The translations under genes and the position numbers were made by a program. Positions 10,086-39,540 of a stretch of 64,000 nucleotides of DNA are shown here, piece after piece (within the stretch, counting starts at the first letter, position 1; every line of letters starts with the position of its first letter). Where the stretch lies: contig NZ_CP121650.1 of assembly GCF_029714405.1 (NCBI RefSeq), positions 992,001 to 1,056,000 of the forward strand, given 5' to 3'. This DNA comes from Bradyrhizobium sp. CB82. Lineage in GTDB: Bacteria; Pseudomonadota; Alphaproteobacteria; Rhizobiales; Xanthobacteraceae. The notes under the pieces were generated by a model. It saw nothing but the letters and a program-made list of their open reading frames with translations, did not search any database and was not told the DNA's origin.

Positions 10086-11070
10086 TGATGACCTTGCCCC
10101 ACGGACTTAATCCAGTTTGAAGTTCGTTCTGGCCCACAACAAGGACCAGAGCATGAAGCGCAGCCGCTTTTCGGACGAGCAGATCATCGGGATTTTGAAG
10201 GAGCATGAGGCCGGCGTTTCGGTCGCCGATCTGTGCCGCAAGCATGGCGTCAGCGATGCCAGCATCTACAAATGGAAGGCTAAGTTCGGTGGGCTGGAGG
10301 TTTCGGAGGCCAAGCGGCTGAGGACGCTGGAGGATGAGAACACGCGGCTGAAGCGGCTGCTGGCCGACGCCATGCTGGACAACGCGGCCTTGAAGGACCT
10401 CTTGGGAAAGAAATGGTGACGCCCGCAGCCAAGCGGAAAGCTGTCGCCCATCTACGAGGCGCCTTCGGAATGAGCGAACGGCGAGCGTGTAAAGCCATCG
10501 GCTGCTGCCGCATGACCGTGAGATACCAGACGGCCCGGGACGATGCCAGCCTTCGCCAGCGCATGAGGGCGATCGCCCAGGATCCCCGTCGCTTCGGCTG
10601 TCGGCGCCTGCATGTTCTGCTCAAGCGGGAAGGCTATCTGATCAACCACAAGAAGCTGTTCCGGCTCTACCGGGAAGAGAGGCTTGCGGTGCGCCGCCGT
10701 GGCGGCCGCAAGCGGGCGATCGGCACCCGGGCGCCGATGACGTTGCCGATGGCGCCCAACGACCGCTGGTCGCTCGACTTCGTGTCGGATCAGCTCACCG
10801 ATGGCCGCCGCTTCCGTATCCTCACCGTCGTCGATGATTGCACCCGCGAGTGCCTGGCGCTGGTAGCCGACACCTCGCTCTCCGGCACCCGCGTGGCGCG
10901 GGAGCTGGACCGGCTGATGGTGGAGCGCGGCAAGCCGAAGATGGTGGTCAGCGACAACGGCAGCGAGTTCACCGGCAACGCCATCCTGACATGGGCCGAT
11001 CAGAGCCGCGTCGCATGGCATTACATCGCGCCGGGCAAGCCCATGCAGAATGCCTTCATCGAGAGCTTCA
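10086..11070 (+). mobile_element. Truncated IS3-family element (IS407-like group)
   Basis: OrfA and the first three quarters of OrfB are present. The element is cut after the catalytic Glu of OrfB at about 11070. The left end is presumed next to the 61-bp relic, where sequence begins TGATGACC. No right terminal repeat was found. Confidence 0.7.
10153..10419 (+). CDS. IS3-family transposase OrfA (IS407-like)
   Basis: This 88-residue protein has an HTH (MKRSRFSDEQIIGILKEHEA, CRKHGVSDASIYKWKAKFGG) and a C-terminal coiled coil (LRTLEDENTRLKRLLADAML) ending in the GKKW typical of IS407/IS511 OrfA. It starts at the ATG at 10153; the frame is open 12 codons upstream, but homologous proteins start with MKRSRF. 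It overlaps OrfB by seven bases. It is intact, although its partner is truncated. Confidence 0.87.
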   Translation: MKRSRFSDEQIIGILKEHEAGVSVADLCRKHGVSDASIYKWKAKFGGLEVSEAKRLRTLEDENTRLKRLLADAMLDNAALKDLLGKKW

Positions 11071-11165
11071 TGTATAGACGGCCCCGCGGATGCAAGGGAT
11101 TTTTGCAGCATTTTGGATATCGGTCGGGTGCGTTCATGTATACGGCCTGTCATTGCGACCGATAG
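10413..11165 (+). pseudogene. Truncated IS3-family transposase OrfB
   Basis: It reads as a normal IS407-type OrfB up to about residue 219: RRFGCRRLHVLLKREGYLIN, then the integrase core with Asp in WSLDFVSD, Asp in MVVSDNGSEF and Glu in AFIESF. After Phe-Met at about 11070 the sequence changes to YRRPRGCKGFLQHFG, which is unrelated, and the usual C-terminal part (NGRLRDE and onward) is absent. The remaining 30 codons are read-through into foreign sequence. The transposase is almost certainly inactive. Confidence 0.83.
11067..11147 (+). repeat. Short direct repeats at an IS truncation point
   Basis: TTCATGTATAGACGGCC at 11067-11083 and TTCATGTATACGGCC at 11133-11147 differ by a 2-base insertion. 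The first copy straddles the point where OrfB stops matching its family. Confidence 0.6.
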
Positions 11166-11575
11166 CATGGCCGCTGGCCCTGATGGAGATCGCGGATCGA
11201 GGCCTCATCAACGGCCGGCTGCGGGCTAGTCCGACCAAAGGACCGATTGCGCCACGCACTACAACGCAGCCACAATATACATAGATTGAACTTCAAAACC
11301 ATCACGGCACTCAAAGAACAGCGGTGCCCAACGCTTCCTAGCACCTTCACGCGTACAGGCCGGCCCCGCTGGGCCATGCAGCTGAAAATTAGGAGCTGTT
11401 CGAAAGACTTTGTCGCAGAAAAAGCTTACTAGCCGCAGCGCGGCTCAGGGGAGCCGATCCCTGTCGCGCGTCTCAAGATCCGGCACCTCCTTACTTAGCC
11501 TATAATCGCGTCGTGCGAAGTGGCTGGCAAGCTCATGCTCTACAGTGTAAACAATGCGTAGATTGAGGCCGACGC
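11148..11575. other. Intergenic stretch without a recognised gene
   Basis: Only short readings are present (up to about 75 codons), none with a domain, signal peptide or ribosome binding site. It probably contains debris from the insertion-sequence traffic on its left. Confidence 0.45.
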
Positions 11576-12625
11576 TCAAAAACAATCTTTAGGCAGTTGA
11601 ACAGTTGAGATATGCCCGTTTAGCCAGCCCCGCCAACGATCAAAGAATGGACCGCTCGTTAGTCGTGTGGTGCCCACTATCCGTCGGCCATCGTCAGTAA
11701 GGTAGAGATAAACTTCCGACGCATTGTTAGACGAAAGCGAGTGCCATTCGTAGGATTTGATACGATAGCCATCCATGGCCGCGAATTCGAAATCAAAGCG
11801 TTTTGCTTCTGACGCGACGGTAGGATGGTCGTCCTTCTCAATCGACACGGGATAATCGTGGGATACCGGCATGCATGATAATGGAGCTTCGTTTCCAGAT
11901 GTGGTACGACAATAGTCTGTGCGCGCGTTGGCCGCGCTGAACAGGTCAGTGACGTGCTGGATTGGGACCGCGTAGCCCTTCGCTCTAGCCTCAGCCAAAT
12001 CACCGTAAATTATAGCCACGAGACGACCGGTTTCGTTGAAGACTGGACTCCCGCTATATCCCGGATCAATTGCATCGCCAACCTCCCAGAACCCGCGTGG
12101 GCCGAAACGTGTCCCAAGTGTGAGCTCGCGCGGCTGTAGGTTCTGACCGAGTGCGAAGCCAAGTGCCCAAAGCTTTGCTCCTGTGCCTATAGATGTGTCA
12201 CGGCAGACGCTAACAAAGTCATACGGACCCTTGTCCCGCGTGGCTTTTAGGAGGGCGGTATCTTGATCGCGATTAGCGTACACCAACTCAAACGATTGAA
12301 TGTCACCGACGGGATCTTTGCAGTCGTACGGAGAAGCGATGGCGCCTCGAATCGAAAGACTCTCGAGTTGGACCCCGTTCTTGTCTGTTAAGAGATGCCA
12401 GGACGTCAGCGCATAACCGTCGCTTGAAATCATAAAGCCACTGCCTGATTTACAATCCACGACTTCGTTCGGCGTTCGCCCCTTGACGACGAGGAAAACC
12501 ATGCTTTTGGCATAGATTTTACTGATGGCTTCGCCGGGAGACTCCGCAAGGGCGCTTGTCATCCCTCCGGCGACGAGCATCATGAAACTAGCCAGCACTG
12601 ATCGAACGACGACTGCGCATCCCAC
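11576..12625 (-). CDS. Exported trypsin-like serine protease
   Basis: This 349-residue protein starts at GTG 12625. That start lies 17 bases past the upstream gene's stop, is preceded by GAGGGA, and gives a clean signal peptide (VLASFMMLVAGG, MTSALA). The catalytic triad fits a DegP-like chymotrypsin fold: His about 77 in TSWHLL, Asp about 122 in DQDTALLK and Ser about 191 in PGYSGSPVF. GSGFMISSDGYALT before the His is typical of the fold. There is no PDZ domain; the last 130 residues form an unassigned C-terminal region with Cys pairs. It is probably periplasmic or secreted. It follows a metalloprotease gene, apparently as one operon. An ATG start 10 codons upstream would overlap that gene. 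Confidence 0.82.
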   Translation of the reverse strand: MGCAVVVRSVLASFMMLVAGGMTSALAESPGEAISKIYAKSMVFLVVKGRTPNEVVDCKSGSGFMISSDGYALTSWHLLTDKNGVQLESLSIRGAIASPYDCKDPVGDIQSFELVYANRDQDTALLKATRDKGPYDFVSVCRDTSIGTGAKLWALGFALGQNLQPRELTLGTRFGPRGFWEVGDAIDPGYSGSPVFNETGRLVAIIYGDLAEARAKGYAVPIQHVTDLFSAANARTDYCRTTSGNEAPLSCMPVSHDYPVSIEKDDHPTVASEAKRFDFEFAAMDGYRIKSYEWHSLSSNNASEVYLYLTDDGRRIVGTTRLTSGPFFDRWRGWLNGHISTVQLPKDCF

Positions 12626-12641
12626 GACTTCAACTCCCTCG

Positions 12642-13400
12642 CTAAGGCTTTCCATACAAAGATTGGACAGTAATGATGTCGCCCTCGCTGAGCGACGGAT
12701 CAATACTGCATTGACAATAGTTCATTTTCGACGTTGGATCCCAAGGCGTTAGGACTCGATCGCCTGGTTGCCCACCAGCCGGCTTGACACATTCCGCCGG
12801 GGTATCTGGCCTAGTATGTTCATGAGCCAAACCGATTGCATGGCCGAACTCGTGGACCGCTATGTTCCGAATCCAGACTGCGGGCGTACCTTCCTGGCAG
12901 CTAGGTAGCCAATTGCCGAAAGAAAAATTCAGAATCATGCCGTCGGGCTCCTTATCAATTTCTGTTCCAAGTCCTTTCGTGCGTGGCCCGTCGTCCTCGA
13001 TCCGTATGCGTATTCCGGGGCTCCCCGGCCCACACGTCCCCCAACCTCTGAACTGTAACTTTGAGTTGGCTTCCCAGGAGCCCTTGACGGCCGTCTTCAC
13101 CCAATCCATAGCCTCGGCGTAAACTTCGTGCGGGTTCTCCCAGCAGACGAAAATAACCTTAGGCTGCAACGGCGTGGGCCAGGACCAAACGGCCGTACTG
13201 AGGACATAGCCTCGTCCGACGCGGTGATAAGTAGTGCCGTTGAACTCAAAGCTGTCCGACATTGTCTGTGCCACCGCGGCACCCGACAGACAGATCGATA
13301 TAACGCACGCCAATCCCTTGAGCTGAGGCAGCCGATCTACTCTGCGTCCGCTACCGCGACTTGCTTTTGCAAAGCAACCTAATGCGGGCTCTCTCTCCAT
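12642..13400 (-). CDS. Exported zinc metalloprotease (metzincin-type)
   Basis: This 252-residue protein has a long basic n-region, then a hydrophobic core (LACVISICLSGAAVAQ). The zinc site is HEFGHAIGLAHEH at about residues 183-195, again HExxHxxGxxH, with KMNYC downstream as a likely Met-turn. Several Cys (CWEN, GTCGPG, PSCQEG, YCQC) suggest disulfides after export. GGAG sits at good spacing before the ATG at 13400. Its motif resembles that of the metalloprotease at 3.2-4.2 kb, but overall similarity looks low. It is the first gene of a leftward pair with a serine protease. Substrate unknown. Confidence 0.82.
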   Translation of the reverse strand: MEREPALGCFAKASRGSGRRVDRLPQLKGLACVISICLSGAAVAQTMSDSFEFNGTTYHRVGRGYVLSTAVWSWPTPLQPKVIFVCWENPHEVYAEAMDWVKTAVKGSWEANSKLQFRGWGTCGPGSPGIRIRIEDDGPRTKGLGTEIDKEPDGMILNFSFGNWLPSCQEGTPAVWIRNIAVHEFGHAIGLAHEHTRPDTPAECVKPAGGQPGDRVLTPWDPTSKMNYCQCSIDPSLSEGDIITVQSLYGKP

Positions 13401-13553
13401 TCTCCGGCTCCGTCAGCCGATCGCTCCCTTAGGGGGAGCAGCATTCAAATAGTCAGAATTGCCATAGATAGAAAAATGCGCCATACTAAACCATGGGTAG
13501 GGAAAACTGAAGTATGTGTTGAAAATGCACTAATATATTCGAGGAGGGATCGC
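13401..13553. promoter_or_regulatory. Divergent promoter region between protease operons
   Basis: These 153 bases separate the leftward metalloprotease/serine protease pair from the rightward serine protease. The part near 13470-13540 is AT-rich. No convincing -35/-10 pair or stress-type GGAAC/CGTT motif was found. Confidence 0.4.
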
Positions 13554-14726
13554 ATGACCAACAAAATACATTCATTAGGTGTGTTGGCTTGGGGGATTGC
13601 CGTCTCGCTTGCCTGTCCAGCAGGAGCCCAGCAGGCCGCCGTATCTCAGGAGCGCGATACGGCGGTCCTAACCACGTCGAGCGCTAGCGTAGACTTCAAA
13701 GCGGCGCGTCCGATGCCGTTGCCTGTCTTTCCTGGCTACACGGGTGTCAAAGCTCAGCAAGACGTCGCCAAGTCGTTTAACGTCCCGCCGGGTGTCCCGG
13801 CAGTGGGACCCGGATTTGAACCTGGCAACGTGGGCACCGGCCAAAAGGAGGAGATCAATCTTGGGACCGTCTCGAGTCCGACCGAGGATACGCCCAACAC
13901 AAACTTCGAGTTTGGAACCCGCAATTTGCCTTTTACTACGGCACGTGCGGATTTGAGTCCCACGGCTACGAACGAAGCTTATCCTTACCGGGCTTCCGGA
14001 AAACTCTTCTTTTTGGTTGGTGCCGATACGTATGTCTGCTCGGCGTCGCTCATCCAGAAAGGGCTTGTTGTCACAGCAGCGCACTGCGTGGCTGAATTTG
14101 GTAAAAAGACGTACTTTTCCGGTTGGCAGTTTGTACCGGGCTATCGAAACGGTGTCGCCCCGTTCGGAACGTGGACGATAGCGCAGGCGCGCGTGCTCGA
14201 TGCATACTATCAGGGGACTGATAAATGTGCCCAGCCCGGGGTTGTGTGCGAAGATGATGTTGCCGTGCTTGTGCTCAATTCTAAGAAGGCATCGGATGGC
14301 AAGCCATATTATGCCGGAATGAATACTGGCTGGTACAGTTTCGGCTGGGATCGAGCCGGGTTCACTGGTCAAGGCGTAACGCATCTGACCCAAATTGGGT
14401 ATCCCAATTGCCTCGATAGTGGGGGGTTCATGCAGCGCAATGATGCGCAGGGCGTTATATCGGCGGATTCCTCAAGCAATACTATTATAGGCTCGCTGAT
14501 GTGCGGTGGTTCGAGTGGCGGTCCAATGGTAGTGAACTTCGGCGTTAGACCCGCGTTAACTGGCACCGCGTCAGGAGCATCCGCTCAACCGAACATGGTA
14601 ATCGGCGTTAATAGTTGGGGTTCCACGAACGACGCAGTGAAGTATATGGGTGCAAGCCCATTCCGATCGTCGAATATCAAGGTTCTAGTTGATGGTGCCT
14701 GTAAAGCCTATCCTGATGCTTGTTGA
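13554..14726 (+). CDS. Exported trypsin-like serine protease with N-terminal prosegment
   Basis: This 390-residue protein starts at ATG 13554 behind a strong GAGGAGGG; an upstream in-frame ATG lacks such a site. The signal peptide ends near PAGAQQ. A prosegment-like region of about 110 residues follows, with VDFKAARPMPLP and Gly/Pro-rich linkers. The chymotrypsin-fold domain then shows His about 177 in TAAHC, Asp about 235 in DDVAVLVL and Ser about 321 in GGSSGGP. The AHC and GGSSGGP motifs are canonical. Zymogen activation is inferred from the layout. The next gene downstream carries a related prosegment without the protease domain. Confidence 0.87.
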   Translation: MTNKIHSLGVLAWGIAVSLACPAGAQQAAVSQERDTAVLTTSSASVDFKAARPMPLPVFPGYTGVKAQQDVAKSFNVPPGVPAVGPGFEPGNVGTGQKEEINLGTVSSPTEDTPNTNFEFGTRNLPFTTARADLSPTATNEAYPYRASGKLFFLVGADTYVCSASLIQKGLVVTAAHCVAEFGKKTYFSGWQFVPGYRNGVAPFGTWTIAQARVLDAYYQGTDKCAQPGVVCEDDVAVLVLNSKKASDGKPYYAGMNTGWYSFGWDRAGFTGQGVTHLTQIGYPNCLDSGGFMQRNDAQGVISADSSSNTIIGSLMCGGSSGGPMVVNFGVRPALTGTASGASAQPNMVIGVNSWGSTNDAVKYMGASPFRSSNIKVLVDGACKAYPDAC

Positions 14727-14757
14727 AGGGAGCTGGCATGCGCCGCTAAAGGGTAGG

Positions 14758-15114
14758 GTGACGCGCCGACTGAACAGCGCAGTTCTAAGCCATGTCTGGC
14801 TCGCTTTCCTAATGCTTGGGACCATCGGGTCGGCGGGGCCGTGGCTCGACGTAGTCGCTGTGAGAGTTCAGGCAGCCGCTTCAGAGTCTGTTTCTGTCGT
14901 TGGTGGAGAGCCCAAAGGCGGCCATCGGGTCGATTTTGGGAAGGCGCGTCCCATGCCGCTCCCGTCTGCAGGTTCCGATGGAGGAACCGGGCTGAAGGAG
15001 CCTTCGGGGACTGTAGAGGAGACTCCCGGAGCGCACAGCTCTGGCCCCGCAGGCACAGGAGATGGCAAATCTCATCCAAGGAGAATCGCGCCGCCTGAGG
15101 ATCCCTCACGGTAG
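14758..15114 (+). CDS. Small exported protein resembling the neighbouring protease prosegment
   Basis: This protein of about 118 residues starts at GTG 14758, preceded by AAAGGG; an upstream start at 14689 would overlap the protease gene. A hydrophobic segment (VWLAFLMLGTIGSAG) gives a signal peptide or anchor. The rest shares a pattern with the upstream protease's N-terminal region: VDFGKARPMPLP against VDFKAARPMPLP, then GTGLKE and GTVEETPG against GTGQKE and GTVSSPTEDTP. It ends before any catalytic domain, in a Gly/Pro/Ser tail. It could be a duplicated, truncated prosegment, a free-standing inhibitor or chaperone, or a remnant. The reading is intact. Confidence 0.62.
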   Translation: MTRRLNSAVLSHVWLAFLMLGTIGSAGPWLDVVAVRVQAAASESVSVVGGEPKGGHRVDFGKARPMPLPSAGSDGGTGLKEPSGTVEETPGAHSSGPAGTGDGKSHPRRIAPPEDPSR

Positions 15115-15417
15115 CGGGTGCGATCGACGTCACGCCGGCTAACTCTGGACAAAGGGCCCGGACTGATCAGGGAGTAGCGAACACTCCTACCTTTTTTTGT
15201 CATTTCGGATTGTCGCGTGCCGAGGTAATGCAAACGACCCAGCGAGTCGATAAAGGGCTCGCTCGCGTTCAGGCTTTGAGACAAATCGAATAACTTCGCT
15301 CATATTCGTAAGCGTCGTTTCGCTCCCACCTTCTCTTGGCGTTTGTGATGGGTGAGGTTCGCGATCTCTTTGAAGGGATCGGCTTGTCTCTATGCTTACC
15401 ATAAGCTTAAGTCAAAC
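15115..15417. other. Intergenic stretch with no gene seen
   Basis: Only short readings without recognisable features are present between the small exported protein and the IS66 fragment. No terminator hairpin with a T-run is visible. Confidence 0.45.
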
Positions 15418-15753
15418 GTGGCGACGAGCGGCTGGAAGTTCACGGGGACGGGACGAGGTCGTTGGTTTTCCAAGGATGACAAGGCCCTGATTGTCGAGGA
15501 GACGCTGGCACCAGGCGCGGTCGTTTCCGACGTTGCCCGACGACACGGGCGAACACCCCAACAAGCGTTCACCTGGCGGCTGGCGCGCTTGCTGCCGGCT
15601 GACGAACCGCAATTTGTACCCGCGGTGGTGGCCACACCTACGGCTAGGTCCGGAGCGCAAGGCGCAACCCAGATGCTCCGCATCAAGTTCAATACTAAGA
15701 TGGAGAAACAGAGGCTGCTCCCGAAGGAGCCCACCACATTCGTACAGCACTGA
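15418..15753 (+). pseudogene. IS66 tnpA fragment
   Basis: The reading WFSKDDKALIVEETLAPGAV followed by VSDVARRHGRTPQQAFTW matches the helix-turn-helix of IS66 TnpA proteins. After ADEPQFVPAVV the sequence no longer resembles the family, and no tnpB or tnpC follows. It differs from the tnpA at 1.6-2.0 kb, so it comes from another IS66 member. Confidence 0.65.
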
Positions 15754-15866
15754 ACCAAAATCAACGACGAGCGGCAGACCGTAGCCAAGCAGCAGGCGAT
15801 CTTAGCTGTTGTCTGACTGTGCGTTTTGCTTGATGGCGGTCGTGCCACCTTCTGGTTCGGGCGCCT

Positions 15867-16110
15867 ATGACAAGATTCATTGCTTATTTCCGCGTGTCTA
15901 CAGAACGCCAGGGTAAATCTGGACTCGTTTTGGCTGCTCAGCGCCGCAAAATCACTGACTCCGTAGCTGCGCCGGAGCGCTCATCGCTGAATTCTGTGAC
16001 CTTCAATCTGGGCGAGACGATTCCCGCATTGAGTTGCAGCGGGCAATGCAGCTGGCTAAGCGCTAGAACGCCAAGCTCGTTATCGCACGGCTCGATCGCT
16101 TCTACTAGTC
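15867..16110 (+). pseudogene. Serine recombinase (resolvase) N-terminal fragment
   Basis: MTRFIAYFRVSTERQGKSGL is the start of a serine recombinase, with the catalytic Ser in RVSTERQ. The family sequence continues in another frame (GALIAEFCDLQSGRDDSRIE, then LQRAMQLAKR), meets a TAG, and picks up again as AKLVIARLDRF. Frameshift plus stop make it non-functional. The large C-terminal domain is missing. Confidence 0.7.
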
Positions 16111-16610
16111 GACGCCGAAGGCGCGCGCTCGGCGATGCACGCGCTGTGCAACCACGGCGATTTCGCTCGGGCCTGGCGGCGGGATCCGTTCGCGGACGGG
16201 ACCTCGCGACGAACCGACGTCGGTTCAAGGGTTGGGATCACAAGCTCCGAGGACGACAGCTCTCATTGCGTTCCTTCCATCTGCCGTGATCCGATGGGAT
16301 TCCCGGCTTCACTGTACCGCGAGCGTACCCCCGCAGTTCACCATCAGGACTTCCGGCCGGTTCGCCCAAATATGCAATGGTGGGGCGGATGGTAGGGCGG
16401 CTTCCCAAGCGGAGCAGATTTTCGCAGACAAAAGTAAGGCGCGACTGGCATCACCACAGTCGCGCCCTACGTCGCCGGTTTATGGGGCAGGGGGGAATAA
16501 CCGGCTGCCGAGATGACTCGTGGGCGCGAAAGTCGTTCCAGCATGGCGAAAATTTTTTTGAACCGCCGCTGCGTATTTCTTTACACACGCTTAAGTGATC
16601 GTCGCTGCGC
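16111..16610. other. Gene-free stretch at the island/chromosome transition
   Basis: No convincing coding reading. It contains one strong hairpin (16438-16466). Base composition and codon signal change to the chromosomal type after this point. Confidence 0.5.
16438..16466. terminator. Perfect 10-bp stem hairpin, possible terminator
   Basis: GGCGCGACTG, a 9-base loop, then CAGTCGCGCC. Read leftward it is followed by TTACTTTTG, a weak T-rich tract. There is no clear leftward gene for it to terminate, so its role is uncertain. Confidence 0.4.
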
Positions 16611-16636
16611 AGAACCTCAGATATTCCGGCAGCGTT
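16611..16636 (+). promoter_or_regulatory. EcfG-like promoter (one mismatch) before the exported protein gene
   Basis: AGAAC, 17 bases, CGTT. The EcfG/general-stress consensus in alphaproteobacteria is GGAAC-N16/17-CGTT, so the -35 has one mismatch. It lies 37 bases before the start codon of the next gene. Confidence 0.5.
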
Positions 16637-16672
16637 GTTCCATGGATCGCCATGGGGCGAGGGACAACAACC

Positions 16673-17065
16673 ATGTCACAGATCAGCAGAGCGTTTTTGG
16701 GCGCAGTCGCCATCTCGTTGACACTCGGTGCCGTACAGCTGGCGTCGGGTCACGATCTCGCCGATCGCTGGCAGGCCGTCGTTGATAAGCCGAGCCACAA
16801 CATCAATCGCATTGACAAGGCGGACCGCATCGCCGCTCCTCGGCCCGCAGCCGTTGCGACGCGTACCGTGTCGATGCGTCTCAACGATCTCGTCGATACG
16901 TCAGTGTTGCTGCGTGTTCCCGCGACGATCGAGACCGGCAATGCCAAGCCGCCCGTCTTGCTGCTGCAAAGGCAGGGGCGCAAGCCCGCGGTCGCCTGCG
17001 AGCCTGTCGTCAGTTCGCTGACCGAAATCGCAAAGCTGCTGCAGCCCGGCCGCTGCGTGACCTGA
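16673..17065 (+). CDS. Small exported protein of unknown function
   Basis: This 130-residue protein starts at ATG 16673, behind GAGGGA. The signal peptide runs MSQISRAFLGAVAISLTLGA to about residue 26. The mature part is basic, with two Cys (ACEP and GRCVT) that could form a disulfide, and no domain I recognise. It probably resides in the periplasm. An EcfG-like promoter just upstream and stress-type neighbours suggest induction by general stress (inference). Confidence 0.72.
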   Translation: MSQISRAFLGAVAISLTLGAVQLASGHDLADRWQAVVDKPSHNINRIDKADRIAAPRPAAVATRTVSMRLNDLVDTSVLLRVPATIETGNAKPPVLLLQRQGRKPAVACEPVVSSLTEIAKLLQPGRCVT

Positions 17066-17087
17066 TTGGTTTGAATTCGATTGTCTT

Positions 17088-17540
17088 CTATTCGGCCGCT
17101 TCGGGCGAGACGTCCTCTTCGGGTGTTCCGGCTCGGCTTGCCATAATCCCGAGTGCCACGCCTCCGATCGCAAGGATGGGAAGCAGCCGCTTGACGCCAA
17201 TGGCGCGGACGACCTGCAAGCCGGTCGCGATCAGCATGGGATCGGCAAGCATGCTTTGCGTTGCGGATCGTGCGGCTCTTTCCGCCGCCAGCCGCTTCTC
17301 GGTCTTTCGCTTGTAGGCGAGATAGCTTCCCGCCGCAGCGAGCGTGAGCAGGAAGAACACGCCGGCGCCGGCGAGGCATGCCTGCACCGGACCATAGTTT
17401 TGCAGCACCAGGATGAAGACTGCGGCGCAGAGAAATGCCGTGGTGATGAAGAGCGCAAGCGCTGCGGCTGCCGCCAGCGACGTCAGGCGCACGGTCGTCC
17501 CGGTCGAGGCGCTGATGCCGTCGATTATCCGCTGAAACAT
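17088..17540 (-). CDS. Membrane protein with three predicted helices, unknown function
   Basis: This 150-residue protein has two adjacent hydrophobic helices at about residues 20-45 (SLAAAAALALFITTAFLCAA) and 52-75 (ACLAGAGVFFLLTLAAAG). A charged cytoplasmic-type stretch (YKRKTEKRLAAERAA) and a third helix near 117-133 (RLLPILAIGGVALGIMA) follow. The layout resembles holin-III/YqjE-like proteins that sit beside DUF883 genes, as this one does. It is 129 bases downstream of the DUF883 gene on the same strand and could share its stress promoter. Confidence 0.65.
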   Translation of the reverse strand: MFQRIIDGISASTGTTVRLTSLAAAAALALFITTAFLCAAVFILVLQNYGPVQACLAGAGVFFLLTLAAAGSYLAYKRKTEKRLAAERAARSATQSMLADPMLIATGLQVVRAIGVKRLLPILAIGGVALGIMASRAGTPEEDVSPEAAE

Positions 17541-17669
17541 CGCCCTCGCTCCTCAATCCCCCCGGCCGGCGTCCAAAGAGCGATGAGATCAGGATGCATC
17601 GTCATCGCGCTTCAGGTCGTTGTTTGCGCATCATCCGGACATCCGCTTCACACTTTTCCGGATCATGCT

Positions 17670-18041
17670 TCAGCGGCGCCAGGCAATGCCGATCAGGAAG
17701 CCGATGCCGAGCGCCAGGCCCACGGTCGCGAGCGGACGCTGCGTGATGGCATCCTCGAGCGTTTCCTCGAGCGAGGCCGCTGCGTCCTGCGCCGCATCGA
17801 TCATCGCGCTGCCGCGATCGGAGGCGTCATCCATCGCCGAATCCATCTGTTGGCGCGCCTGCCTGTAGCCGCGCCGGGCTTGCTTGCCCGCGGAGTTGGC
17901 AAAGGTGTTGAGGGCATCGGTGATCTGCTCGGTGAGGGCGGCGATATCGCTTTTCACGGCTAGGACATCCTTTTCGAGGCGCTCTCGGGTAGCCTTGTCG
18001 GTCCAGTCTCTCGTCCCGGTTTCGCCATTGGTCGCTGACAT
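17670..18041 (-). CDS. DUF883 (ElaB/YqjD-like) membrane-anchored protein
   Basis: This 123-residue protein has a long amphipathic, Ala/Glu/Lys-rich helix (LEKDVLAVKSDIAALTEQIT and onward). A C-terminal membrane segment with the family GxxxG pattern follows (RPLATVGLALGIGFLIGIAW) and ends in RR. E. coli ElaB and YqjD are tail-anchored, stress-induced and ribosome-associated; the role here is inferred from that family. Start chosen at 18041, behind GGAG. A perfect EcfG-type promoter lies 38 bases upstream. Confidence 0.83.
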   Translation of the reverse strand: MSATNGETGTRDWTDKATRERLEKDVLAVKSDIAALTEQITDALNTFANSAGKQARRGYRQARQQMDSAMDDASDRGSAMIDAAQDAAASLEETLEDAITQRPLATVGLALGIGFLIGIAWRR

Positions 18042-18078
18042 CGAAAGCTCCGGATCTTTGTCGGTGAGACAGCCAAAA

Positions 18079-18103
18079 AACGTCCCGCCGGGACGGAAGT
18101 TCC
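18079..18103 (-). promoter_or_regulatory. EcfG-type general stress promoter for the DUF883 gene
   Basis: On the reverse strand: GGAAC, 16 bases, CGTT, a perfect match to the EcfG consensus. It lies 38 bases before the start codon. Confidence 0.8.
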
Positions 18104-18118
18104 ACCCCCGGAAACAGC

Positions 18119-19237
18119 TCAGTCGGCAGGCAGTTGAGGCGCATCGGCGGGAGCCAGATGCTCCTTCAGGATCAGCGCGACGATCAGAAGCGGCGACGAC
18201 AGGAATGCGCCCATCGGGCCCCACAGCCAGGTCCAAAAGGCGAGCGCGAGAAAGACCGCCAGGGCATTCAGTGCCAGCCGCCGGCCGATGATGGTGGGCG
18301 TGACGAAATGTCCCTCCAGGAAAGTTAGGCCGCCAAAGGCGAGCGCCGCCATCAATCCGCTGCCGATGGTCGGAAAGGCGATGAGGCCGACCACGACCAG
18401 CACGACGAACATCGCGATTGGTCCGATGATCGGGATGAAGTTCAGCGTCGCCGCCAGCGCACCGAGCCCGGCCGGATTGGGCATGCCAGTCAGCGCACAG
18501 ACGATGCCGGTGGTGATGCCGACGCCGATATTAATGACCGTCACCGTCAAGAGATAGTTGCCGAGATGGACCTCGATCTCGTTGAGGATCCGCAGCGTGC
18601 GCAGCCGCGCGTCGCGATCGCTGAAGGTCATAATCAGGGCGCGTCTCAAGTCGCGCCAGCTCGCGATGAACAGGATCAGGGTCGCGAAGAACAGCAGGAA
18701 TTCGGTGAAGGTCGGCGACAGGAATTCCAGGGTCGGCTGCACCCATTCGAATTTCGGCATCTGGAGGGTGGGCAGGCCTCCCGAACCGCCGACCATGGCC
18801 TGCAGTTCCTGCCACAGCGCAAGCGGCCGGTCGAACAAATGCAGCTTGTCCTTGAGCAGCGCGCCGAGTTCGGGCAGGCGCGTGCTCCATTCCATGACCG
18901 GCGAAGCGATCAGGGCGACGACAAAGGTGACCATCGCCGTGACCGTGACCACGATTAGCACGGCAGCCAGCGCGCGGGGCACCCGTTGCCGTTCCAGAGA
19001 TGTTGCCGCTGGCGACAGCATGGTGCCCGTGACGAAGGCCATCACCACGGGAAGGAAGAACGGCTTGCCGACATAGAGCACGGCCACGACCGCGATCAGG
19101 AGCAGGCCTGCGAGTGCGAAGGCGACGAACTCCGTGCGCCGGATCACCGGCGGCAGGTCGCTCTTGCTGTCGGGAAGCGGCGCGCCTTCGCTGTCGTTGG
19201 CAATCAGACGTTCGCTGGGAAGGACGCGCACCACCAT
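18119..19237 (-). CDS. AI-2E family transporter (PerM/YdiK-like membrane protein)
   Basis: This 372-residue protein has seven to eight hydrophobic segments in the AI-2E/UPF0118 pattern. Two helices lie near the N-terminus (VAFALAGLLLIAVVAVLYVG, FLPVVMAFVTGTM). A large loop follows, then the conserved C-terminal block PAGLGALAATLNFIPIIGP, EGHFVTPTIIGRRLALN and LWGPMGAFLSSPLL. Some family members move autoinducer-2 and others act as Na+/H+ antiporters; the substrate here is unknown. A perfect EcfG-type promoter about 47 bases upstream suggests stress induction. Confidence 0.87.
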   Translation of the reverse strand: MVVRVLPSERLIANDSEGAPLPDSKSDLPPVIRRTEFVAFALAGLLLIAVVAVLYVGKPFFLPVVMAFVTGTMLSPAATSLERQRVPRALAAVLIVVTVTAMVTFVVALIASPVMEWSTRLPELGALLKDKLHLFDRPLALWQELQAMVGGSGGLPTLQMPKFEWVQPTLEFLSPTFTEFLLFFATLILFIASWRDLRRALIMTFSDRDARLRTLRILNEIEVHLGNYLLTVTVINIGVGITTGIVCALTGMPNPAGLGALAATLNFIPIIGPIAMFVVLVVVGLIAFPTIGSGLMAALAFGGLTFLEGHFVTPTIIGRRLALNALAVFLALAFWTWLWGPMGAFLSSPLLIVALILKEHLAPADAPQLPAD

Positions 19238-19283
19238 TCTCCCGCACGAAGGCTCACGCTCCGCACGCCCAAGATTGTCCGAA

Positions 19284-19308
19284 AACGTGTCGCGGACCCG
19301 AAGGTTCC
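19284..19308 (-). promoter_or_regulatory. EcfG-type general stress promoter for the AI-2E family gene
   Basis: On the reverse strand: GGAAC, 16 bases, CGTT, matching the consensus exactly. It is 47 bases before the start codon and divergent from another such promoter at 19368. Confidence 0.8.
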
Positions 19309-19367
19309 GTCGCGGACTCGTGAAGACGCCTTGCCTTGACTGTGATCCGCCGGCGCCGCGTGCGCGC

Positions 19368-19393
19368 GGAACTTGAGTCGTCGCAAACGCGTT
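19368..19393 (+). promoter_or_regulatory. EcfG-type general stress promoter for the L,D-transpeptidase operon
   Basis: GGAAC, 17 bases, CGTT, exact. The expected transcript start near 19400 would exclude the most upstream in-frame start codons of the next gene. Confidence 0.8.
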
Positions 19394-19443
19394 TGTTCGG
19401 GCAACGCATCACCATGATGCACTTCTCGTCAACGGGGCAGCAC

Positions 19444-20247
19444 ATGACACAGTTATCTGCATCCCACCGCCGGCTTTCGCCGCGCGCGGTCGCCGCATTT
19501 GCCTTTGCGACAGCATTGCTGACGGTGCCACTCGGCGCCGCGAGCGCGCAGTCGCTTCTGTTCGCGCCGATGCAGCCGCAGGCCTTTCCGCGAGATTATG
19601 CGCAAGGCTACGTGACCGAGCAGCCGCAGGCCTCGGACGATCCGGTAGCCGCGGATGATTCAGTCCTGCCCGAGCGGCTGCGCCGGCAGATCGTCAGCTT
19701 CGACGGCGGCCAGCCGGCCGGGACGATCGTGATCGATACGGGCCATACCGTGCTCTACTACGTGCTCGGCCAGGGCCGCGCGATCCGCTATGGCGTCGGT
19801 GTCGGGCGCGACGGCTTCACCTGGTCGGGCGTGCAGTCGATCAGCCGCAAGGCGGAATGGCCGGACTGGCATCCGCCGACGGAGATGATCGCGCGCCAGC
19901 CCTATCTGCCGCGTTTCGTCGCCGGCGGCCCCGGCAATCCGCTCGGCGCGCGTGCGATGTATCTGGGCGCGAGCGAATATCGCATCCACGGCACCAATGA
20001 TCCCACCACGATCGGAAAATTCGTCTCCTCCGGCTGCATCCGCATGACCAACGAGGACGTCGTCGATCTCTTCAACCGGGTCAACATCGGCACCAGGGTC
20101 GTGGTGCTCCCGAAGAACGCGCCGTTGCTGGCGCGAGGCGGCGATGGCCTGCATAAGCCCGCGCGCGGTGTCACGACGACGCCGACATCGGGACGCCAGG
20201 CGCTCAATCTTTCGCCCGTCTCCCTGAACAGTTCGGCGCCGAGGTAA
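19444..20247 (+). CDS. L,D-transpeptidase (YkuD domain), exported
   Basis: This protein of about 267 residues has a signal peptide (LSPRAVAAFAFATALLTVPL, GAASAQ). The YkuD domain spans about residues 70-225, with the catalytic motif HGTNDPTTIGKFVSSGCIRM, where His and Cys are the active residues. These enzymes form 3-3 cross-links in peptidoglycan or attach outer-membrane proteins to it in the periplasm. The start at 19444 gives a compact signal peptide; ATG 19414 is an alternative. It is followed after one base by a DUF2865 gene, so the two are co-transcribed, probably from the EcfG-type promoter at 19368. Confidence 0.88.
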   Translation: MTQLSASHRRLSPRAVAAFAFATALLTVPLGAASAQSLLFAPMQPQAFPRDYAQGYVTEQPQASDDPVAADDSVLPERLRRQIVSFDGGQPAGTIVIDTGHTVLYYVLGQGRAIRYGVGVGRDGFTWSGVQSISRKAEWPDWHPPTEMIARQPYLPRFVAGGPGNPLGARAMYLGASEYRIHGTNDPTTIGKFVSSGCIRMTNEDVVDLFNRVNIGTRVVVLPKNAPLLARGGDGLHKPARGVTTTPTSGRQALNLSPVSLNSSAPR

Positions 20248-20248
20248 C

Positions 20249-20896
20249 ATGATCAGGCGTTCGACAGTCAAGGTGACAGGCGGAGCGGCGGTCTTGCTGT
20301 TTGCTTCGCTCAGCCTGGCGCTGACGTCGTCGGCGCGCGCGGAGGATTTCCTCTCGGCGCTGTTCGGCGCGTTCGGTGCCCGGCCGCCGCCACAGATCAG
20401 GATGCCGTTCCCCACCGACGACATGCCGCGCTACGAGGCGCCGCGCGGGCGTTTCTATGGCGGCGGGCAGGCCTGGTGCGTGCGCACCTGCGACGGACGC
20501 CACTTTCCGGCGCAAGGCACCGATGGTGAGAGCAAGGCGCAGAGCTGCAACAGCTTCTGCCCGGCGGCCGAAACCACGCTGGTCTATGGCAGCGACATCG
20601 ACGACGCGGTCACGGAGACCGGTCAGGACTATTCCGAACTGCCGAACGCCTACCGCTACCGCAACGAGCTCGTCGCGGGCTGCACCTGCAATGGCAAGGA
20701 CCCCGTCGGTCTCGCAACGGTCAAGGTCACGGACGATCCGACCTTGCGCAAAGGTGACATCGTCGCGAGCCCCCGCGGATTGGTGGTTGCAAATCGCAAC
20801 GCCAACGACCGGCATGGCGTCGCCATGAACTTCTCGCCGCTGCCGGAGTCCATGCGGGCAAAATTCCGCCACCTGCCGGTCGTGGCGCGGGAGTAA
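20249..20896 (+). CDS. Exported DUF2865 domain protein
   Basis: This 215-residue protein has a signal peptide (MIRRSTVKVTGGAAVLLFAS to SSARAED). The Cys-rich DUF2865 region is visible as AWCVRTCDGRHFPAQGTDG, QSCNSFCPA, TLVYGSDIDDAV and VAGCTCNGKDPVGL. Six Cys suggest disulfides in the periplasm. The family is mostly from Rhizobiales and has no assigned function. It sits one base after the L,D-transpeptidase stop, so a cell-wall role is plausible. Confidence 0.82.
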   Translation: MIRRSTVKVTGGAAVLLFASLSLALTSSARAEDFLSALFGAFGARPPPQIRMPFPTDDMPRYEAPRGRFYGGGQAWCVRTCDGRHFPAQGTDGESKAQSCNSFCPAAETTLVYGSDIDDAVTETGQDYSELPNAYRYRNELVAGCTCNGKDPVGLATVKVTDDPTLRKGDIVASPRGLVVANRNANDRHGVAMNFSPLPESMRAKFRHLPVVARE

Positions 20897-21046
20897 GCGC
20901 TGGTATCGGCTTGTCCTCTTGGTCTCGTTCCCTCGAAGTGCCGGGCAATCACAGATGAACGACAGAGCCTGGTGCTCAAGCCGCCACAGCATCCCCGTGC
21001 CCCTGGAAATGCGCATTCATGAGGGGTTGTAATGGGTTGCCTGAAT

Positions 21047-21072
21047 GGAACCGAGGCGAGGGGCGCGGCGTT
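21047..21072 (+). promoter_or_regulatory. EcfG-type general stress promoter for the small membrane protein
   Basis: GGAAC, 17 bases, CGTT, exact, 34 bases before the start codon at 21106. Confidence 0.8.
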
Positions 21073-21105
21073 GGAAGTCTGGTAGCAAACAGGGGGGCCC
21101 TTCCG

Positions 21106-21261
21106 ATGCTCGTCGGCGTACTCGTCACCTTTCTCGTCGTCATCCTCGTTCTTTATCTCATCAACATGCTGCCGATGGACGGCCGCGCCAAGCAGATCGC
21201 GCGTGTCATCGTCATCATCATCGGCATCGTCTCGCTGCTGAAATATCTGGCGGTGTTCTAG
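21106..21261 (+). CDS. Small membrane protein (Thivi_2564-like)
   Basis: This 51-residue protein has two transmembrane helices (VGVLVTFLVVILVLYLINML and IARVIVIIIGIVSLLKYLAV) around the conserved INMLPMDGRAK turn seen in Thivi_2564-type small membrane proteins. The start at 21106 is taken because AGGGGGG precedes it and the EcfG-type promoter lies just upstream; the frame remains open further back. Its function is unknown. A stress-induced membrane role is inferred. Confidence 0.78.
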   Translation: MLVGVLVTFLVVILVLYLINMLPMDGRAKQIARVIVIIIGIVSLLKYLAVF

Positions 21262-21273
21262 TGGGCTACGGGC

Positions 21274-21302
21274 CAAACAAAAGCCCCGGCGTGGGCCGGG
21301 GC
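21274..21302 (-). terminator. Rho-independent terminator after the CsbD gene
   Basis: Read leftward: GCCCCGGC, CCAC, GCCGGGGC, then TTTTGTTTG. The 8-bp GC stem lies 20 bases after the csbD-like stop. It also sits just past the rightward membrane-protein gene, so it may work in both directions. Confidence 0.75.
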
Positions 21303-21321
21303 CGTTCGTCTTGCGCAGAAT

Positions 21322-21522
21322 TCAGTGCAACGACTTGAGCCAATCGTCGACGTCCTTCCGAATCTGGTCCTTGGCGAGGCCGTAGCGCTGCTGTAGCCGG
21401 CCTTCGAGCTGTTCGCGACGACCCTCGATCACGTTGAGGTCGTCGTCAGTGAGCTTGCCCCATTTCTCCTTGGCGGAGCCCTTGAACTGCTTCCAATTTC
21501 CCTCGACGCGATTCCAGTCCAT
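21322..21522 (-). CDS. CsbD family stress protein
   Basis: This 66-residue protein reads MDWNRVEGNWKQFKGSAKEK, then WGKLTDDDLNVIEGRREQLE, the complete CsbD pattern. CsbD proteins are small, hydrophilic and general-stress induced (SigB in Bacillus); their molecular role is unknown. The ATG at 21522 is favoured over one two codons upstream because GGGAG is six bases before it. A perfect EcfG-type promoter is directly upstream and a terminator follows. Confidence 0.9.
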   Translation of the reverse strand: MDWNRVEGNWKQFKGSAKEKWGKLTDDDLNVIEGRREQLEGRLQQRYGLAKDQIRKDVDDWLKSLH

Positions 21523-21550
21523 GGCCATCTCCCGTTGGTTGATGGCCGAC

Positions 21551-21575
21551 AACGCGAGCGGCGCGCAGCCGTTCC
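21551..21575 (-). promoter_or_regulatory. EcfG-type general stress promoter for the CsbD gene
   Basis: On the reverse strand: GGAAC, 16 bases, CGTT, exact, 29 bases before the start codon. Confidence 0.8.
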
Positions 21576-39308: not shown

Positions 39309-39540
39309 CTGTGCGGGAGTCTAGGTTCATCTCGTTGGTCACACAATACGAGGTAGAATAAACCTACTCCTGACGGCAATGGATCGCAGAAAAATAAGAA
39401 GGAATGATGCGTCGACTGGCGTCTGGTAGCCATTTTTACCCAAATATTCCCCTCCCGCGAAATGGCTATTTCGCAGCCGCGGGAGGGAAAACGCAAAGGA
39501 GCCGAAAAGGTTCCGGAGTGGCGCCGAATTTACCGACGGC
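39309..39540. other. Intergenic region, no feature seen
   Basis: About 230 bases between the permease start and the flippase stop. It is AT-richer near 39350-39450, which fits a leftward promoter for the permease. No specific motif identified. Confidence 0.35.

Follow-up and report, generated by a model that had tools for sequence, protein, structure and literature searches.

Genes and promoter motifs of the block

The window analysed here is a stretch of 64,000 nucleotides of Bradyrhizobium sp. CB82 (positions 992001-1056000 of contig NZ_CP121650.1, hereafter C1). Between positions 16611 and 21575 it carries a block of genes for predicted stress and envelope proteins, interspersed with motifs of the type recognised by EcfG, the sigma factor of the PhyR-NepR general stress response. 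The features of the block and of its left border are given below in window coordinates; counts of loci refer to the Bradyrhizobium relatives described in the next section.

16375..16430 (no strand): broken ancestral junction; the phyR-side DNA that continues here in the relatives L062, L080 and L037 is found at C1:8,510,136 in this genome
16611..16636 (+): variant promoter AGAAC-N17-CGTT, upstream of the gene for a secreted 130-residue protein; AGAAC form in 15/27 orthologous loci
16673..17065 (+): 130-residue protein (hyp16673) with a signal-peptide-like N-terminus and two conserved cysteines; matches no Pfam or NCBIfam family
17088..17540 (-): 150-residue membrane protein, second gene after DUF883; weak likeness to holin superfamily III (PF07332), profile match below cut-off
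17670..18041 (-): DUF883 membrane-anchored stress protein; PF05957, 28.6 bits (cut-off 25.4)
18079..18103 (-): EcfG-type promoter for DUF883 and the following gene; exact in 79/79 loci
18119..19237 (-): AI-2E family transporter; PF01594, 129 bits
19284..19308 (-): EcfG-type promoter for AI-2E; exact in 59/80 loci, at most one mismatch in 76/80
19368..19393 (+): EcfG-type promoter for the L,D-transpeptidase and DUF2865 genes, facing away from the AI-2E promoter; exact in 70/80 loci, at most one mismatch in 80/80
19417..20247 (+): L,D-transpeptidase (YkuD); PF03734, 86 bits; SGCIRM catalytic motif seen by eye in the translation
20249..20896 (+): DUF2865 protein, after a 1-base gap; PF11064, 115.6 bits
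21047..21072 (+): EcfG-type promoter for the small membrane protein gene; exact in 68/75 loci
21106..21261 (+): Thivi_2564 family membrane protein, 51 residues; NF041949, 61 bits (NCBIfam cut-off 33)
21322..21522 (-): CsbD-like protein; PF05532, 80 bits (cut-off 40)
21551..21575 (-): EcfG-type promoter of csbD; exact in all 35 loci with a CsbD homologue (found in 35/80)

The five exact sites have a GGAAC -35 element and a CGTT -10 element at a spacing of 16 or 17 nt, the pattern of EcfG (ECF15) promoters; the Rhizobium etli EcfG1 motif is GGAAC-N16-CGTT (PMC3892343; articles cited by PMC number are represented by excerpts throughout). The site at 16611-16636 departs from this consensus at one position. 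A previous sequence-only reading of the window had recorded these five perfect motifs and the single-mismatch one, and all coordinates and strands were confirmed. Its statement that the motifs face gene starts also held, and its distances of 29-76 bases fit roughly if counted from the 5' end of the motif: from the 3' end to the likely start codon the coordinates give 23-46 nt. For the L,D-transpeptidase this distance is 23 nt to the ATG at 19417 or 50 nt to the ATG at 19444, and translation may begin at the latter, which by eye gives the better signal peptide. The gene families named in that reading stood, except that 'L,D-transpeptidase with DUF2865' turned out to be two adjacent genes rather than one, and its 'tiny membrane protein' belongs to the named family Thivi_2564.

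Conservation of the promoters in Bradyrhizobium

We examined the best 80 of at least 567 transpeptidase relatives, mostly titled Bradyrhizobium (L031-L110), located the block homologues by tblastn, and counted exact sites on the correct strand within about 200 nt upstream. The relatives nearest to the window genome in this set are Bradyrhizobium. The counts exclude genes that had no match, whose match began only after residue 25, or whose upstream DNA was too short. An exact site precedes DUF883 in all 79 loci counted, CsbD in all 35, the Thivi_2564 gene in 68 of 75 and the L,D-transpeptidase gene in 70 of 80. No exact site was found before the malate synthase gene (glcB, 0/74), DUF2865 (0/69) or the gene at 17088-17540 (0/78), nor within 150 nt of any of 1375 mechanically called open reading frames (ORFs) of at least 150 residues outside the block. 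The conservation is nearly specific to spacing: 16 and 17 nt dominate, and none of the other spacings tested (10-15 and 18-23 nt) occurs in more than two loci for any gene. Shuffled motifs gave means of 0.03-0.16 in the same loci, the single highest count being 16/79.

Neither the gene at 17088-17540 nor the DUF2865 gene has a site of its own; each is probably the second gene of an operon, and DUF2865 is probably co-transcribed with the transpeptidase. That each block gene has its own promoter is ruled out by the counts for these two genes.

The single-mismatch site at 16611 proved to be a conserved off-consensus variant in Bradyrhizobium. A homologue of the secreted protein was found in 27 of the 80 loci, preceded by AGAAC-N17-CGTT in 15, by the CGAAC form in two and by the GAAAC form in one, and in nine by nothing within one mismatch; the exact motif is present before 7/23 orthologues from other genera. 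We read this site as probably a weakened EcfG promoter. In Sphingopyxis, AAC is almost invariant in the -35 box (PMC7083833).

Exact sites also occur elsewhere. One lies in the window outside the block, at 39490-39514 on the minus strand, 181 nt before a TauE/SafE exporter gene. One Bradyrhizobium clade (L096, L097, L098, L100, L102, L106 and L107) has extra exact sites left of the block, preceding small proteins of 46, 59, 64 and 80 residues and lying between the block and phyR where phyR is in range; the locus is larger in this clade because of these further sites.

The block and the regulators are neighbours in many relatives

In the window genome a complete phyR-nepR-ecfG locus lies at C1:8.512 Mb. 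There nepR adjoins ecfG and is oriented divergently from phyR, and a gene for an HWE histidine kinase is next to the locus. NepR has one match in the genome and EcfG one full match. The distance between these regulators and the block is 7.5 Mb, which would shrink to 1.7 Mb on a circular contig. Among the 80 Bradyrhizobium loci, 13 have phyR to the left of the block, together with nepR in 10 and with ecfG in nine.

The junction between the two parts can be followed in L062, L080 and L037. In each, a continuous stretch of DNA can be aligned piecewise with the phyR side of the window genome as far as C1:8,510,136; 17-48 bp after this match ends, a match to the window begins at 16423-16427. L108 has more unmatched DNA at the junction, about 650 bp. 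What was a single ancestral junction is thus divided in the window genome, with one half at 1.008 Mb and the other at 8.510 Mb. The two halves are reversed relative to each other, the arrangement expected after an inversion. Past the break on the regulator side, at a distance of about 1 kb, there is an integrase gene, and 26 bp of the window (16375-16400) are 92% identical to DNA at the 5' end of that integrase. We infer an insertion and an inversion as the cause of the split.

The left flank of the block (10413-16400) contains an IS3-like transposase gene farther left, two genes for trypsin-like proteases, a weak astacin/matrixin match and, by eye, a broken recombinase-like ORF without a Pfam match, a content typical of foreign DNA. 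ARAGORN found no transfer RNA (tRNA) gene in the window, nor in L062, L080, L037 and L222 spanning the split junction, and we therefore see no tRNA insertion site there. The one Rfam match in the window lies outside the block and is the alphaproteobacterial small RNA BjrC1505 (RF02356; 56713-56854, plus strand, 134.6 bits).

A second set was anchored on PhyR and comprised 40 other Bradyrhizobium genomes, from 59 with a match among 60 searched; it shares some genomes with the 80 transpeptidase-anchored loci. In 13 of the 40, phyR, the secreted-protein gene and the block follow in that order. A further 20 have the secreted-protein gene but no block within 9 kb (L289 and L292 being too near an edge to judge), six have neither, and one stretch was too short. 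An example of separation is given by phyR and the secreted-protein gene at 1.12 Mb (L255) and the block at 7.65 Mb (L071) of seemingly the same chromosome. The secreted-protein gene was kept with the block in the window's clade and with phyR in the 20 others, and because it stayed with different partners in different groups, at least two different breaks are suggested within Bradyrhizobium. In the AI-2E protein tree the linked state does not form one clade (9 changes), and we counted no events from this tree because the label 'not linked' partly reflects short flanks. One record in that tree, L033, is titled Frankia sp. RB7; since its copy of the block has Bradyrhizobium-like identity and its place in the tree is within Bradyrhizobium, it is probably mislabelled.

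Other genera of the family and the wider order

AI-2E had 68 matches outside the genus, and 40 of these made up the family set. In 19 of these 40 loci the stretch also contains PhyR with EcfG or NepR; 18 of them are among the 25 closest loci (57-71% identity), and seven genus labels are represented. Five genomes that share one genus label carry the block but no regulators in the stretch examined; one of the five, L297, is cut by a contig end. Exact sites recur before DUF883 (19/23), the transpeptidase (16/21), the small membrane protein (17/24) and CsbD (9/10), and are rare or missing before DUF2865 (1/24), the 17088-17540 gene (0/18) and glcB (0/19). The sites thus lie directly upstream on the correct strand and are conserved in orthologues, AI-2E being the exception in this set.

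At the level of the order, AI-2E had a match in 167 of 199 genomes, 160 of them outside the genus, and we took the best match of 60 (28-38% identity). In 35/60 an exact site on the same strand falls in the 350 nt preceding the start of homology, against 4/60 for the opposite strand; shuffled motifs gave a mean of 0.11 and a maximum of 3. Weaker AI-2E copies were taken as paralogues from 20 genomes, including two Bradyrhizobium; an exact site precedes 1/20 of them, or 1/17 without three partial matches whose upstream region falls inside the gene. The exact promoter therefore accompanies distant AI-2E homologues and not the paralogues, with the family set (4/40) standing apart. One paralogue locus, L205, adjoins phyR and ecfG yet has no exact site. 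PhyR with NepR or EcfG was found within about 6 kb of AI-2E in 17 of the 60 order-level loci.

Behind other exact sites near the order-level AI-2E genes we collected 70 ORFs, of which 51 were scanned and 19 spurious-looking ones left out. Pfam identified PhyR (9), NepR (6), DUF1328 (4), DUF883_C (4), PRC (3), CsbD (2) and ferritin (2); the scan recovers the regulators themselves and therefore serves as a positive control.

Assignment to EcfG and alternative explanations

The sequence-only reading had assigned the motifs to EcfG and the PhyR-NepR response from their consensus. This assignment is well supported by comparative sequence evidence, because the sites show exact, nearly spacing-specific conservation and are absent from the 1375 other ORFs, because phyR, nepR and ecfG are present in the genome, and because the block adjoins their locus in many relatives. 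Phosphorylated PhyR binds NepR and so frees EcfG (PMC8103513); EcfG controls more than 100 genes in Bradyrhizobium diazoefficiens (PMC8092242), and csbD is EcfG-dependent in Sphingopyxis (PMC7083833).

Several observations weigh against reading the block as an EcfG-driven arm of the stress locus. Conservation before AI-2E is incomplete within Bradyrhizobium (exact in 59/80, at most one mismatch in 76/80), and only 4/40 loci of the family set have an exact site within 250 nt of this gene. In the 80 Bradyrhizobium loci, 48 of 361 exact sites do not lie before block genes, and the secreted-protein gene is off-consensus throughout the loci seen, with exact GGAAC in 0/27. The DUF883 pair was not found in eight of the 18 closest linked loci outside the genus. 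The regulators' own promoters, which are usually EcfG-dependent (PMC8103513), have few exact sites in the family set (nepR 4/19, phyR 2/19) and one mismatch each in the window genome, where the divergent region between phyR and nepR-ecfG holds two one-mismatch sites (-10 elements CGTA and CATT), as did 33/200 shuffles. Ten further ECF-like (extracytoplasmic function) proteins match EcfG at up to 39% identity, and the specificity of the three at 37-39% may overlap with that of EcfG. Finally, the exact motif is not enriched in the genome (10.14 Mb): it occurs in 186 copies, against 232 for a reversed control, and a lone match is uninformative for that reason.

The genome-wide scan had been proposed with the sequence-only reading as a measure of chance, and it gave a divided answer, the motif being unremarkable in frequency and exceptional in local density. 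The five sites within 3.5 kb are the densest cluster among the 178 copies on C1, the eight copies on contig C2 being scattered, and in 20,000 trials of random placement the best 3.5-kb window reached five sites once. A shuffle across the window gave a weaker result, six matches being reached in 3/100 cases (spacings 15-18). Conservation is stronger evidence than these cluster statistics.

Three other explanations have to be weighed. The block could be a new regulon island that came together secondarily in Bradyrhizobium, its closeness to phyR in some genomes being derived; in favour of this, L037, L062 and L080 are the only loci on the Bradyrhizobium japonicum side of the tree that have the regulators beside the block. 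The linked order recurs, however, among the closest orthologues under seven other genus labels and on other branches of the Bradyrhizobium tree, and AI-2E lies near phyR or ecfG in 17/60 order-level loci, so that we regard secondary assembly as unlikely. It is also quite improbable that the sites are real ECF promoters used chiefly by a different ECF sigma factor whose -35 element is GGAAC. The ten ECF-like matches, three of them at 37-39% identity, leave room for such a factor, and some ECF factors share targets whose recognition differs only in the -10 element (PMC8103513). Nevertheless, CGTT at a spacing of 16 (here 16 or 17) is the published EcfG pattern, two alternatives described in B. 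japonicum look different (GTAAC-N14-15 for EcfF, GCAGAC/TAACAAT at the ecfQ promoter), and in many genomes the block is next to ecfG itself. Coincidental matches in GC-rich DNA, to which the genome-wide count alone pointed and which produced six matches in three of the 100 window shuffles, are ruled out for all practical purposes by near-complete conservation in the right orientation and spacing, by the empty control of 1375 ORFs and by a cluster seen once in 20,000 placements.

Proposed organisation of the locus

The block is very probably the effector arm of the general stress response locus, made of EcfG-driven units and split from its regulators in the window's lineage. Under stress, PhyR would sequester NepR, and free EcfG would guide RNA polymerase to the five exact promoters; the AGAAC promoter is probably also a target, and a weaker one. 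Five or six transcription units would then be induced together: DUF883 with the holin-III-like membrane protein, the AI-2E exporter, the transpeptidase with DUF2865, Thivi_2564, CsbD and the secreted protein. In the envelope, the L,D-transpeptidase would add 3-3 cross-links and the AI-2E protein would export some compound. The genes were probably once arranged as ecfG-nepR-phyR-(secreted protein)-(membrane protein)-DUF883-AI-2E / transpeptidase-DUF2865-small membrane protein-csbD, and the chromosome would have broken between the regulators (8.51 Mb) and the effectors (1.01 Mb) in the window's lineage. The promoters would have been retained after the split because EcfG acts in trans.

On a broader scale, we think it reasonably likely that the general stress response of the family was originally one locus of regulators and core effectors, cut at least twice in Bradyrhizobium and probably once in another genus, with AI-2E as a core effector across the order. 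In the window's clade the cut would have fallen on the left side of the secreted-protein gene, and elsewhere on its right side.

Products of the block

The protein encoded at 17088-17540 scores 15.7 bits against PF07332, below the cut-off of 28.4, and 7 of 13 orthologues match this family at E<=0.05 (best 1.2e-4); it may be YqjE-like. The order of DUF883 followed by this membrane protein, with its weak, sub-threshold similarity to PF07332, resembles that of yqjD-yqjE (DUF883, holin III) of Escherichia coli, which together with yjbJ (CsbD) are presumably RpoS-type stationary-phase genes; ElaB is reported to be under RpoS. The CsbD-like protein is near the PRK10428 model (95 bits, below the cut-off of 113). 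The E. coli genes differ from the block in depending on a sigma factor other than EcfG.

Pfam and NCBIfam searches assigned no family to the 130-residue secreted protein, and a structure model from 16 sequences had a confidence too low for use (mean predicted local distance difference test score 54.3, predicted template modelling score 0.22). The leader before its gene (16640-16672) contains a conserved word, GGGGCGAGG, which lies at most 60 nt from the start in 24/27 orthologous loci. The gap between DUF2865 and Thivi_2564 (20897-21105) is about 0.2 kb in the window and ranges from 0.07 to 6.6 kb in relatives (median 2.4 kb; 75 of the 80 loci L031-L110), making it a possible insertion hot spot.

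Comparison with known systems and significance

This genome shares its promoter consensus and regulators with the PhyR-NepR-EcfG systems of B. diazoefficiens, R. etli (RpoE4/EcfG1) and Sinorhizobium meliloti (RpoE2). The csbD gene is a known target elsewhere, and targets are clustered with the regulators in relatives of the window genome. Unlike in those systems, five or six effector units stand here in one block, 7.5 (or 1.7) Mb from the regulators. The excerpts of this literature name neither Thivi_2564 nor a transpeptidase-DUF2865 pair among the targets. The regulon of Sphingopyxis granuli is like the block in that csbD depends directly on EcfG and the -35 boxes are GGAAC, and the excerpt describes no effector block beside the regulators (PMC7083833). 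In the open papers, whose coverage did not extend to regulon tables that may list these genes, we found no description of such a locus architecture with repeated splitting or of AI-2E as a recurrent target, and in the open literature no paper that treats EcfG together with AI-2E. Promoters of this type and their sigma factor were known before; what appears to be new is the block as the downstream arm of the phyR-nepR-ecfG master locus.

The sequence-only reading had expected the uncharacterised proteins of the block to gain a function class, and from their promoters and gene order a regulatory class can now be proposed for DUF2865, Thivi_2564, the 130-residue secreted protein and the 150-residue membrane protein. 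One transporter of the AI-2E family, which is named for a quorum signal, is marked as a recurrent general-stress gene. Pairs of genomes with linked and unlinked arrangements offer natural tests of why regulators and their targets stay together. In Bradyrhizobium, EcfG-controlled functions beyond trehalose synthesis contribute to nodulation competitiveness (PMC8092242), and the block would be a compact candidate for such functions.

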